From: Pseudoxanthomonas sp.
GTDB taxonomy: Bacteria; Pseudomonadota; Gammaproteobacteria; Xanthomonadales; Xanthomonadaceae
Reading direction: 5' to 3'
DNA length: 60,402 nucleotides
Assembly: GCF_024710765.1 (NCBI RefSeq)
Contig: NZ_JANJUE010000071.1
Location: 1-60,402 of the forward strand
Shown here: in pieces, positions 53,825-58,381 of the stretch
How positions within the stretch are numbered: position 1 is the first letter of the stretch
How the letters are laid out: each line of letters begins with the position of its first letter
Position numbers and translations under genes: made by a program
The notes under the pieces: model-generated
Database searches by the model: none
What the model was told of the DNA's origin: nothing
What the model saw: only the letters and a program-made list of their open reading frames with translations

Positions 53825-55089
53825 GTACCCCTCGCCCGCATGTGGTCATTGTCGGTGGCGGCTTTGCCGGCCTGTGGGCGGCACGGGCACTGGCCAGGGC
53901 GCCCGTCCGGATCACCCTGATCGACCGCCGCAACCATCACCTCTTCCAGCCGCTGCTCTACCAGGTGGCCACTGCCGGCCTGTCGGCGCCCGACATCGCG
54001 GCGCCGCTGCGCCATATCCTGCGCCGCCAGGCCAATGTGGAAGTGCGCCTGGCGGAAGTCACCGCCGTGGATGCGTCATCGCGCCAACTAAGGCTGGGTG
54101 ACACCAGCGTCCTGGACTATGACTACCTGCTGCTGGCCACCGGCGCCACCCATGCCTACTTCGGCCACGACGAATGGGCCCAACATGCGCCCGGGCTGAA
54201 GACGCTGGACGACGCCCTGCGGCTGCGCCGCCACCTGCTGGTCGCTTTCGAGCGCGCCGAAGCCGAGCCCGACCCCGCCCGTCGCGCGGCATGGCTCAAC
54301 TTCGCCATCGTCGGCGGCGGTCCCACCGGTGTCGAACTCGCGGGAACACTCGCCGAGATTGCGCGGCATACGCTGAAGAACGAGTTCCGCAACATCGATC
54401 CGGGCGAGGCGCGCGTGCGCCTGATCGAGGCCGGCCCGCGCGTCCTGGCTTCATTCCCGGAAGATCTTTCCGGGCGCGCTCGCCGCCAGCTGGAAAAACT
54501 GGGCGTGGAAGTCAGCACCGGCGTACCGGTCACCGCCATCAGCGACGCGGGTTATCAACTGGGCGACAGTTTCGTACCGGCCCGCACGGTGGTGTGGGCG
54601 GCCGGCGTCGCCGCGTCCCCGCTCGCGCGCTCGCTGGGGGTTCCCCTGGATCGGGCCGGACGCGTGATCGTGCAGGCCGACCTTAGCGTGCCGGGTCATC
54701 CCGAGATCTTCGTTGGTGGCGATCTGGCGTCCGTGCAGAGCGACGGGCGTCCGGTACCCGGCGTGGCTCCCGCGGCCAAGCAGATGGGGCGGCACATCGC
54801 GGCGGCCATACGGTCACGGTTGGCCGGGAAGCCTGCCACGCCGTTCCGCTACAAGGATTTCGGCAACCTCGCCACCATCGGCCGGATGGCGGCCGTGGTG
54901 CATCTGGGCCGGCTGAAACTGTCCGGCCTGCTGGCCTGGTGGTTCTGGCTGGCCGCGCACGTGTTCTTCCTCATCGGCTTCCGCAACCGGCTGGTCGTGT
55001 TGCTCAACTGGGCGTGGGCTTACTGGAGCTACCAGCGTGGCGCGCGCATCATCTTCGGCGCCGCCGGGGAAGAACCACCGGATCAATGA
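53821..55089 (+). CDS. ndh: Type II NADH dehydrogenase
   Basis: This 422-residue membrane-bound flavoprotein oxidises NADH and reduces quinone without pumping protons. The FAD-binding motif is VVIVGGGFAGLWAARAL (8-24) and the NADH motif is FAIVGGGPTGVELAGTL (about 161-177). VWAAGVAASPLA and IFVGGDLASV bind FAD. The conserved RRNHHLFQPLLYQVATAGL segment and the hydrophobic C-terminal part (LLAWWFWLAAHVFFLIGFRNRLVVLLNW) anchor it. A GGAG site precedes the ATG. Its end overlaps the convergent DUF1203 gene by 7 nt. Confidence 0.95.
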   Translation: MSTPRPHVVIVGGGFAGLWAARALARAPVRITLIDRRNHHLFQPLLYQVATAGLSAPDIAAPLRHILRRQANVEVRLAEVTAVDASSRQLRLGDTSVLDYDYLLLATGATHAYFGHDEWAQHAPGLKTLDDALRLRRHLLVAFERAEAEPDPARRAAWLNFAIVGGGPTGVELAGTLAEIARHTLKNEFRNIDPGEARVRLIEAGPRVLASFPEDLSGRARRQLEKLGVEVSTGVPVTAISDAGYQLGDSFVPARTVVWAAGVAASPLARSLGVPLDRAGRVIVQADLSVPGHPEIFVGGDLASVQSDGRPVPGVAPAAKQMGRHIAAAIRSRLAGKPATPFRYKDFGNLATIGRMAAVVHLGRLKLSGLLAWWFWLAAHVFFLIGFRNRLVVLLNWAWAYWSYQRGARIIFGAAGEEPPDQ

Positions 55090-55550
55090 CGATCCACGCG
55101 CGCCGCGAAGCAACCGGGGCGTGCGTTGTGCAGGTGCAGGTAGTTCACCTCGACGCGCTGGAAGAAGCCTTCGATCGCCTGGACCAGTTGGGTACCCTCC
55201 ACGACCTCGGAGGCCTGCATCCAGCCGTCGGCATCGTAGGCTCGCACGGACAGCAGTCGACGCAGGAAGGACTCCGGTATCCGGTTCTCGAACACCGCGG
55301 CTTCGCCGGCACGCTCGCGCACGAAGATCGGTCCGCCTGCGCGATACGGGCCGGTCACGTCGTGATGCTGGAACGGCAACAGCAGCAGGACCTCGCCCAC
55401 CCGGGCGTTGTCCAGCGAAACCCTGCACGGGAAGCCGCGATCGCTGTCGGCAACGACACGCCGCATCGATTGGCGCCCCAGCGCCGCGTCATCCAGCGGC
55501 CAAAGGTGGGTGAACAGGTCGGGCGACAGGCCGGTGATGCGGTAGGACAT
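55083..55550 (-). CDS. DUF1203 family protein
   Basis: The 155-residue cytoplasmic protein (MSYRITGLSPDLFTHLWPLDDAAL, CRVSLDNARVGEVLLLLPFQHHDVTGPYRAGGPIFVRE, YLHLHNARPGCFAARVDR) matches DUF1203 at full length. Its function is unknown. It lies between ndh (convergent) and rpoH (same strand, upstream), the latter separated by a terminator. Confidence 0.88.
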   Translation of the reverse strand: MSYRITGLSPDLFTHLWPLDDAALGRQSMRRVVADSDRGFPCRVSLDNARVGEVLLLLPFQHHDVTGPYRAGGPIFVRERAGEAAVFENRIPESFLRRLLSVRAYDADGWMQASEVVEGTQLVQAIEGFFQRVEVNYLHLHNARPGCFAARVDRH

Positions 55551-55620
55551 GGCGGAAACTCCTAAGGGGGCCTGCAGCATCCCCCGTGTGCGGATGCGTC
55601 GCCATCCGGTTCTTGCGCGC

Positions 55621-55652
55621 CCAAAACGAAACGGCCCCGTTTCCGGGGCCGT
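55621..55652 (-). terminator. Intrinsic terminator after rpoH
   Basis: ACGGCCCCG and CGGGGCCGT form a 9-bp stem with a 4-nt loop; on the minus strand TTCGTTTTGG follows. It lies 26 bp past the rpoH stop. Confidence 0.85.
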
Positions 55653-55677
55653 CGTGGATTGCGTCGGGTCCGTTCGC

Positions 55678-56565
<888 letters not shown>

Positions 56566-56566
56566 C

Positions 56567-56593
56567 TTAGCAGTCGGGTTGTTCGACTGCTAA
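56567..56593. promoter_or_regulatory. CIRCE-like inverted repeat at the rpoH promoter
   Basis: TTAGCAGTC-N9-GACTGCTAA is a perfect inverted repeat. The HrcA operator CIRCE is TTAGCACTC-N9-GAGTGCTAA, so each arm differs at one symmetrical base and the 9-nt spacing is identical. It lies between the candidate -35 and -10 of rpoH, where a repressor would block transcription. Confidence 0.7.
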
Positions 56594-56719
56594 CCGGTAA
56601 AAGAGTTCCCCATCATTCCGGATCTGGAACGATGGACCAAACATGTTCAGGTTCTGTAAGGGAAACGGCAACAGTACCGACATCCCGGCCAGCTTAGGAC
56701 CAGAACTTTAAATTTTGTT

Positions 56720-58381
56720 TTAAATCAATTGGTTGACCTTTAGCGTGCTATCCACATGCTGGGCCCCGGGCGGCAGTGGCGTCCGGGACAGTGCAGACGG
56801 CAGATCCTGGCCCGCCAGCGGCCGGGCGAACAGGTAGCCCTGCAGCAGGGTCACCCCGTGCCGGATCAGCGCATCGGCCTGTGCCCGGGTTTCCACTCCT
56901 TCGGCGACAACATCCAGATCCATGCGCTCGGCCAAATCCAGGATCGTCCGCAGGATCGGCGTCATGCCGGCGGGCGAGCCCAGCCGGGCGATGAAGCCGC
57001 GATCGATCTTCAGGCCATCCACCCGCAAGTCCTGGAGATGGCTGAGGTTGGAATGTCCCACCCCGAAATCGTCGAGCGCGATCCGCACGCCCATCCGGCG
57101 GAGTTCTTCCAGCACCGCGTGCACGTCCTCATCCGCTTCCACGCCTTCGCGCTCGGTCAGCTCCAGGACCAGGATGATCCTGTCTTGCGGAAAGACAGAC
57201 AGAAAGCGCTGACACTGTTCGGGCAACCATCGCCCGGCCAAGTGCGCAGGCGTGATGTTGAAGGAAACATGGAAGCCCACCGGCAGCTGCGGAAGCATGC
57301 CCGCGAGCTCATGGGCGGCCCGCTCCATCAGGTACCCCGTTGCGGGCAGGATAAACCTGGATCGTTCCAGGCCAGTCATGAAGCTGTCGGGCGCCAGCAG
57401 GCCCCGATTCGGATGCAGCCAGCGCGCCAGTACTTCCACACCTGCCCATTCCATGTCCGCGGCACGTACCAGCGGCTGGTAGTAGGGAACGAACTCGCCT
57501 TTCCGGATGGCGCGCTCGTATTCGCGGTGCCGGCCCTGCCGGCGGGGCATCAGGCGGTGAATCAGATAGCCGCCGGGAATACCGGCGAGCAACACCAGCA
57601 GGACACCAACGTGGAACGAACGCCATGGCGGGCGCGGCATCGCGTCTGGCGCATCGGCGACGATTTCGATGGGATAGCGCGATGAAGCGATCGCTGCCGC
57701 GTCCGGACGGGTTGGTGACCGTGCAAGTCCATCATTCCCCAACTGCATCCCCGCCACGCGCCATGCGCCGTCGCCGACGTCGCGACCGATTGCTGCCCGC
57801 CAGGCATGCCGTGCGTCCACCACGGCGATCACCTGTTGCGATCCCTGCCGCCACCGGTAAAGCAGGAGCGGACGTTCCGGCGCCACCGCGCTGCCGGCAA
57901 CGAATGCCAATGCTTCCTGGCCACCCCCGAACATCCCCAGGTCCCCGCCGCTTTCACCCGACAGGCTCGCGCAATGGACCTCGCCATCCCGCGCCAGTAG
58001 CAGGGAACGCACCTGTGGAACCACGGCAGCCTGCCGGCGTAGTGCCCCGAGCACGCTTTCACAAGGCGCATCGGCAAGCGGCATTGCAGCCACGGCCGCG
58101 GCATGGACCTCGTCGAGCATCATCTCCAGTTGCGACAGCACGCGTCGCTGTTCCTGCGAGGTTTCTAGCTGGCGTGTCTGCAGGACATTGTCTTGAATCA
58201 ACGACAGTCCCATCCATCCAGGGATCAGGATCACCAGCCAGACAAGCCCCGCACGCGCGAGACGCCTCCACCTGCCCGAGTGGAGACCATGCCCAATTGC
58301 GCAACCGGTATCACGCGTACCAACCCAACCGCCCCGCTGCGGGCGGCCAGTCGCTTCGAGCTTGGCGTGAATGGCATGCAT
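56720..58381 (-). CDS. CSS-motif cyclic-di-GMP phosphodiesterase (EAL)
   Basis: This is a 553-residue protein with an N-terminal membrane helix (about 42-63), a periplasmic CSS-type domain (Cys in LADAPCESVLG and VHCASLSGES), a second helix (about 258-280) and a cytoplasmic EAL domain (about 290-540). Catalytic positions look intact: EVLAR (EAL variant), NITPAHL, ELTERE, DDFGVGHSN, LKIDRGF and AEGVETR. CSS-EAL proteins cleave c-di-GMP and are controlled by periplasmic redox state of the two cysteines. It lies downstream of a 587-bp gene-free stretch. Confidence 0.9.
   Translation of the reverse strand: MHAIHAKLEATGRPQRGGWVGTRDTGCAIGHGLHSGRWRRLARAGLVWLVILIPGWMGLSLIQDNVLQTRQLETSQEQRRVLSQLEMMLDEVHAAAVAAMPLADAPCESVLGALRRQAAVVPQVRSLLLARDGEVHCASLSGESGGDLGMFGGGQEALAFVAGSAVAPERPLLLYRWRQGSQQVIAVVDARHAWRAAIGRDVGDGAWRVAGMQLGNDGLARSPTRPDAAAIASSRYPIEIVADAPDAMPRPPWRSFHVGVLLVLLAGIPGGYLIHRLMPRRQGRHREYERAIRKGEFVPYYQPLVRAADMEWAGVEVLARWLHPNRGLLAPDSFMTGLERSRFILPATGYLMERAAHELAGMLPQLPVGFHVSFNITPAHLAGRWLPEQCQRFLSVFPQDRIILVLELTEREGVEADEDVHAVLEELRRMGVRIALDDFGVGHSNLSHLQDLRVDGLKIDRGFIARLGSPAGMTPILRTILDLAERMDLDVVAEGVETRAQADALIRHGVTLLQGYLFARPLAGQDLPSALSRTPLPPGAQHVDSTLKVNQLI

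Follow-up and report, generated by a model that had tools for sequence, protein, structure and literature searches.

A CIRCE-variant inverted repeat in front of rpoH as a probable HrcA operator in Pseudoxanthomonas and its relatives

The window considered here is a stretch of 60,402 nucleotides from Pseudoxanthomonas sp. (Xanthomonadaceae; contig NZ_JANJUE010000071.1 of assembly GCF_024710765.1). It carries rpoH, the gene for sigma32, and directly 5' of it a 27-bp palindrome (Table 1). A single base lies between the palindrome and the first possible ATG of rpoH (56565-56563); a second candidate ATG is at 56556-56554, and many RpoH relatives align from residue 2-4 onward only. The gene directly upstream of rpoH (56720-58381, minus strand) encodes an EAL-domain protein with matches to c-di-GMP phosphodiesterases. 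This upstream gene is not conserved: of 81 loci tested, one has an EAL-domain relative in that place (L174 of G032). It looks like a recent arrival.

Table 1. Features at the rpoH locus, with positions in the window
Feature	Position	Strand	Remark
rpoH, sigma32, 295 aa from first ATG	55678..56565	-	TIGR02392 413.5 bits, cut-off 323.1
CIRCE-variant inverted repeat, proposed HrcA operator, TTAGCAGTC-N9-GACTGCTAA	56567..56593	-	uniqueness, conservation, co-occurrence with hrcA
Left arm TTAGCAGTC (rpoH strand)	56585..56593	-	last two bases are the start of the sigmaE-type -10
Right arm GACTGCTAA (rpoH strand)	56567..56575	-	
SigmaE-type -35, GGAACTC	56603..56609	-	motif scoring; outside the palindrome
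SigmaE-type -10, TCGAA	56582..56586	-	16 bp from the -35
Extended -10-like TGCTAAGAT	56564..56572	-	right arm plus three bases; 7 bases before the ATG at 56556

The palindrome reads TTAGCAGTC-GGGTTGTTC-GACTGCTAA. It is the sole match in the window, at up to 3 mismatches, to TTAGCASTC-N9-GASTGCTAA, for which shuffling gives an expectation of 0.01 per window, and the half-site TTAGCAGTC occurs in the window as the two palindrome arms with no other copy. The spacer has the 9 bp of CIRCE, and each arm agrees with the CIRCE reference arms (TTAGCACTC and GAGTGCTAA) in 8 of 9 bases. Because both arms carry G in place of the CIRCE C at position 7, the palindrome is classed as a CIRCE variant and not as CIRCE proper. 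The first-pass annotation of this DNA had described the spacing and the symmetrical mismatch correctly; the span it gave, 56564-56593, ends where the repeat ends and starts 3 bp too wide.

That annotation also had the palindrome overlapping a candidate -35/-10 pair. By its motifs, the rpoH promoter region looks like a sigmaE-type promoter plus an extended -10. On the rpoH strand, GGAACTC-N16-TCGAA fits GGAACTT-N15..17-TCNAA, the sigmaE consensus by which we take the promoter to be of this type. The overlap stands for the -10, with the left arm opening the sigmaE-type -10 and the right arm lying in the extended -10, and falls for the -35, which is clear of the repeat. A leaderless rpoH start at the ATG at 56556, after the extended -10-like TGCTAAGAT, is possible. 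No sigma32-type promoter was found on the genome's own hrcA or rpoH at a score of at least 10 of 13 with at least 5 of 7 in the -35; the hrcA upstreams of the panel give a weak match to such a promoter in 4 of 27 cases.

The genome to which the window belongs (G000; 4.63 Mb in 443 contigs, 99.88% complete, 4.5% contamination) has the hrcA that an HrcA operator calls for. There is one copy (PF01628, 2.3e-63; TIGR00331, 322.4 bits), followed by frames that are presumably grpE and dnaK. Across the whole genome, CIRCE at up to 3 mismatches is found in two places, at groES and at the rpoH palindrome, and reversed-pattern controls give 0 matches. The groES site is CTGGCACTC-N9-GAGTGCTAA, with C at position 7 of both arms, and the same upstream region carries CTTGAAA-N13-CCCCAT, a sigma32-type promoter by its consensus. 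The first-pass annotation had named both groES and dnaK as places to look for CIRCE; it is present at groES and absent from the hrcA-grpE-dnaK stretch, no copy being found in the 3.7-kb hrcA locus. The right arm of the groES CIRCE runs into TGCTAACAT, which is extended -10-like (L204), and an overlap of operator and -10 may be present at groES too.

Conservation can be followed in 80 named loci of close RpoH relatives among the matches listed (526 confirmed), from Pseudoxanthomonas, Xanthomonas, Stenotrophomonas, Lysobacter, Luteimonas and others. Among these listed matches, a repeat within 3 mismatches of CIRCE, position 7 ignored, is present in 75 of 80, and in the best N9 register 73 of 80 carry G at this position in each arm. 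The right arm is exactly GACTGCTAA in 69, the left arm exactly TTAGCAGTC in 43, and both are exact in 34 of the 80 listed; wear of the left arm, to CCGGCAGTC or CCAGCAGTC, is seen in many loci of Xanthomonas and in some of Stenotrophomonas. Five named loci among the matches listed have no repeat within this limit (L034, L046, L055, L065 and L073). One record, L058, is titled Bacillus subtilis strain SK7B5 contig00016; its RpoH locus is 88% identical to that of the window and its upstream DNA is, by eye, like that of Stenotrophomonas loci. The record looks mislabelled or contaminated.

In a panel of 151 genomes of the order, RpoH was found in 144, HrcA in 71 and a CIRCE match in 81. The reversed control matches many of these genomes too, up to 3 times each, and a match is therefore informative when it lies next to rpoH. 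A site within 3 mismatches of CIRCE stands at rpoH in 61 of 69 genomes with hrcA versus 0 of 75 without it (kinship uncorrected). The site has 0-1 mismatches in 39 of the 69 and none in 21, and 20 of these 21 perfect copies are outside the window's family. Upstream regions were read for part of the genomes, and 16 further hrcA-bearing cases were placed by coordinates. The count of 0 of 75 rests on the whole-genome CIRCE scan, in which the matches of hrcA-less genomes lie on another contig than rpoH, with unlisted matches checked in the rpoH upstream itself (G072, G077, G114, G127, G132); G019 and G033, which have hrcA without an RpoH match, are left out of these counts. The eight hrcA-bearing genomes that miss the site are G061, G096, G101 and G141, all with worn arms, and G025, G121, G016 and G034, the last of which has good arms at rpoH around an 8-base spacer. 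By eye, L120 (from G034) and L100 (from G121) show good or fair arms with an 8- or 6-base spacer.

The first-pass annotation had set store by conservation among relatives, and the site is indeed conserved at rpoH, as perfect CIRCE in other families; by this comparison, G for C at arm position 7 is the derived state. Single families give a finer picture. In family f11, two genomes without hrcA (G011 and G021) keep the GGAACTT element and TGCTAA of the right arm, and the left arm is gone. In f4, the hrcA-less G026 has nothing, and two of the three hrcA-bearing genomes (G016 and G034) also lack a regular site. Three f8 genomes (G057, G043, G103) have CIRCE-like matches in or by a frame away from rpoH, which is probably a serine dehydratase gene. 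One f12 genome carries, at a place other than its rpoH site, the CIRCE-like TTAGCAGTC-N9-GACTGCCAA, in which both arms have G (L314; G080:C21:234824).

The window's own family was represented by 45 genomes of 44 genera. They hold 69 CIRCE-like sites, 34 at rpoH, 34 at groES and 1 elsewhere (G183), and the reversed control gives one match in each of 4 of the 45 genomes. Because 68 of the 69 sites are at these two genes, the HrcA regulon of the family looks like groESL plus rpoH, and the concern that the G variant might be a frequent unrelated repeat falls away. In 39 of these genomes (6 without a readable site dropped), the rpoH arms hold 1.71 and 1.74 bits per column and the spacer 0.45; the 30 bases upstream hold 0.47, with a peak at GGAACT. 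Two genomes, G013 and G153, have no detectable hrcA, and at both rpoH and groES they are without any site within 3 mismatches. G153 shows a worn remnant at rpoH. The loss in G013 is partial, since it keeps, at a spacer of 10, GACTGCTAA as an exact right arm together with CAGTC from the left one, and it is mainly this remnant that slightly lowers our confidence in an HrcA operator. With hrcA present, G159 and G182 lack the site at rpoH and keep it at groES; in G177 the site is absent at groES.

It could be argued that the palindrome is a mere overlap of a sigmaE -10 in the left arm with an extended -10 in the right arm, without any repressor. Both promoter motifs are conserved. A sigmaE-type motif scoring at least 9 of 11 is found in 79 of 85 rpoH upstreams with hrcA and 20 of 29 without (mononucleotide shuffles reach this score in 2.8% and 5.0%, respectively). 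AAC is at the distance that places TC of the left arm on the -10 in 69 of 80 sites (spacer 16 in 60, 17 in 9); its register differs in the other 11, which are those of G170, G177, G172, G054 and seven f11 genomes. Of the 40 family genomes that were grouped with the window's clade (28 for which Leu was read in HrcA, see below, and 12 grouped without an HrcA reading), 32 have TGCTAAnAT, versus 12 of 45 other hrcA-bearing upstreams. Moreover, sites with a worn left arm, such as the Xanthomonas types, preserve the right arm best, and it is still exact in G013. However, the hrcA-less upstreams, most of which keep the sigmaE-type motif, have a CIRCE-type site in 0 of 29 cases, and their best match has at least 5 mismatches even with C or G free at position 7. 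TTAGCA of the left arm is superfluous for the sigmaE-type motif, yet the arm as a whole averages 1.71 bits over the 39 family sites; the same 27-bp element also occurs at groES and in other families; and the seven f11 sites lie at a different offset to the -35. We regard promoter overlap without a repressor as quite improbable.

Still less speaks for a hairpin in the 5' leader of the rpoH transcript, for instance an RNA thermometer, and we give it hardly any weight. A 10-bp stem would form in the transcribed strand, its end one base short of the first ATG, and the stem plus gene start folds at -25.9 kcal/mol (z -5.9). Against this, a sigmaE-type transcript would begin at about the right arm, a start position that we chose, and would not contain the stem. 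One-arm changes that break pairs are common (C/G states), and the hairpin is not kept by pairing in relatives. No Rfam thermometer matches the 55000-58000 region up to E 1, and the presence of the repeat follows hrcA.

The G at position 7 is the one point at which the palindrome departs from CIRCE. At rpoH, the 45 family genomes have 21 G/G, 7 C/G, 3 G/A, 8 C/C, 4 without a site and 2 unreadable; at groES, they have 20 C/C, 14 with G in one arm, 7 G/G, 3 without a site and 1 in which groES was not found. A regulator other than HrcA might have taken over an old CIRCE after the C-to-G change, which would fit G/G at rpoH in 21 of 45 genomes next to C/C at the window genome's own groES. But G is also found in groES sites of the window's clade: of the 41 genomes having a groES site, 21 carry it in one or both arms. 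Furthermore, one-arm intermediates exist, 1 of the 69 sites is elsewhere than rpoH or groES, and the rpoH sites go with hrcA. Takeover by another regulator is in our view about as doubtful as promoter overlap. Because groES sites carry the G so often, the cognate HrcA plausibly accepts it, and the one-base discrepancy is best explained as lineage drift common to the groES operator of many relatives.

HrcA itself varies as well. Thermotoga HrcA (1stz) has Met at one column of the recognition helix; all 21 genomes with G at groES and all 21 with G/G at rpoH have Leu there. The groES site is C/C in 12 of 12 Met genomes that have one, and in 8 Leu genomes, the window's own among them. On an HrcA tree built without the DNA-binding domain, a single branch unites the 30 genomes with Leu (100/99; bootstrap not fully settled). 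Independent-pair tests gave no support for co-evolution because Met/Leu changes once on the panel HrcA tree, and the pairs show no, or almost no, difference in the second trait. The G counts at rpoH and groES correlate at Spearman 0.45 (n 37 of 45; raw, kinship uncorrected). Outside the family, the HrcA column and site were read in 20 genomes, where Leu is found in G003 (rpoH G/G), G015 (groES C/G, groES frame seen), G041 and G069, and also in G030 and G038 (G/C); G002 has Leu and rpoH C/G, and its genus-mate G014 has Met and C/C.

A strict rule in which HrcA Leu equals a G operator is rejected on three counts. Leu also occurs with C/C rpoH sites (G031, G059, G177) and with the C/C groES sites of the 8 panel genomes mentioned above, and Met occurs with one-arm G at rpoH in G005, G060, G074, G100, G091, G163, G167, G170 and G179. 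The association of position 7 with Leu is suggestive of permissive drift.

The arrangement extends beyond the order. A composite pattern (GGAAC, 11 bases, then CIRCE with C or G at position 7, up to 2 mismatches anywhere) is found in 165 of 369 Gammaproteobacteria, with no reversed-control match among the matches listed. Twenty of these loci, not a random draw, were read: 17 are before rpoH, 2 before groES and 1 is unresolved, and 16 of the rpoH loci, but neither of the 2 at groES, have GAAC in register. Since two groES loci matched without GAAC in register, the 165 will include some cases of ordinary CIRCE at groES. hrcA is present in 268 of the 369, and the composite occurs in 158 of 268 genomes with hrcA versus 7 of 101 without (kinship uncorrected); 6 of these 7 are under 90% complete. 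In a draw across the phylum, the composite was found in 39 of 398 genomes, with one reversed-control match. Of 19 such loci read, 16 are before groES and 3 before rpoH (L357, L358, L362), all 3 in Gammaproteobacteria.

Taken together, the palindrome is very probably an HrcA operator, a lineage-specific CIRCE variant on the rpoH promoter region through which HrcA would repress rpoH. This is the reading of the first-pass annotation, and it is supported: hrcA, conservation and the test for an unrelated repeat all came out in its favour. Counting against it are G/G at position 7 of rpoH while the own groES stays C/C, hrcA-bearing genomes without a good rpoH site (G159, G182, G121 and G016, with an 8-base spacer in G034), and the worn left arms of the Xanthomonas type.

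HrcA is a dimeric repressor that acts on CIRCE and loses its activity when GroE is titrated. An HrcA dimer on the palindrome would cover the -10 and start region of the sigmaE-type promoter and the overlapping extended -10, keeping rpoH low. Titration of the chaperonin by unfolded protein, or heating of HrcA, would release HrcA and free groESL and rpoH alike. With sigma32 also driving groESL from its separate consensus promoter, the result would be a coherent feed-forward loop, in which sigma32 is nested under HrcA beside the direct control of groESL by HrcA. While GroE is free, rpoH and groESL would both be low, and under folding stress they would be freed together. HrcA binding and repression, the use of sigmaE, the start sites and the titration signal at rpoH are predictions from sequence.

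Published expression data, as far as the available parts of the sources go, do not support a simple derepression model. In Stenotrophomonas maltophilia KJ, 10 min at 42 C left rpoH mRNA without significant change while rpoE rose 5.9-fold (PMC6479208); the repeat is present in S. maltophilia loci, L025 among them. Under nitrogen starvation in Xylella, hrcA rose 4-fold and groESL fell, yet rpoH rose 2-fold (PMC3224663). A weak operator or dominance of sigmaE would reconcile these data with HrcA control, and failure of the HrcA idea would also account for them.

A broader reading can be put forward tentatively, at somewhat under even odds for its three parts jointly. The merged sigmaE promoter and HrcA operator on rpoH would be ancestral in Gammaproteobacteria and lost in lineages without hrcA; a single 43-bp element would thereby combine envelope stress, through sigmaE, with chaperonin load, through HrcA, ahead of sigma32 synthesis; and HrcA would have drifted jointly with its two operators at position 7 in the clade of the window, with Met-to-Leu in the recognition helix. 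Going by E. coli, the main controls on sigma32 are translation, stability and sigmaE. Should HrcA occupy rpoH in many of the Gammaproteobacteria that have hrcA, the heat-shock systems of sigma32 (positive) and HrcA (negative) would belong to a single hierarchy instead of running as parallel arms, and loss of hrcA should raise the whole sigma32 regulon. The available part of one study indicates that RpoH appears essential in Xanthomonas campestris (PMC6085468). Position-7 drift at both targets of an apparent two-target regulon would make a compact natural case for studying repressor-operator co-evolution.

Among the papers listed from the open literature, titles and abstract beginnings do not name HrcA control of rpoH in Gammaproteobacteria, nor do they mention the position-7 variant or the sigmaE overlap; HrcA control of rpoH may already be noted in the existing literature. 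The site resembles the CIRCE/HrcA systems of groESL and dnaK operons in many bacteria in its 9-bp arms, N9 spacer and promoter-proximal place, and in the presence of hrcA and a groES CIRCE in the same genome and co-occurrence with hrcA. It differs from them in having the sigma32 gene as its target, in the G at position 7 of each arm and in the lack of CIRCE on the own hrcA-grpE-dnaK stretch. CIRCE at rpoH is already known as a kind of arrangement, because it was predicted at -51 from rpoH in Geobacter sulfurreducens (Rodionov et al. 2004, PMC545781 Table 8). The wiring of HrcA over sigma32 is the same in this delta-proteobacterium, but there the rpoH CIRCE is perfect, CIRCE is also on hrcA-grpE-dnaK-dnaJ, and the available part of the paper mentions no sigmaE overlap of the kind found in the window (PMC545781). 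E. coli, unlike the window genome, is without an HrcA/CIRCE regulon, according to the same part of that paper (PMC545781), but its rpoH P3 promoter is sigmaE-dependent (PMC8103513, available part), and sigmaE transcribes rpoH there as it would from the sigmaE-type promoter proposed here.
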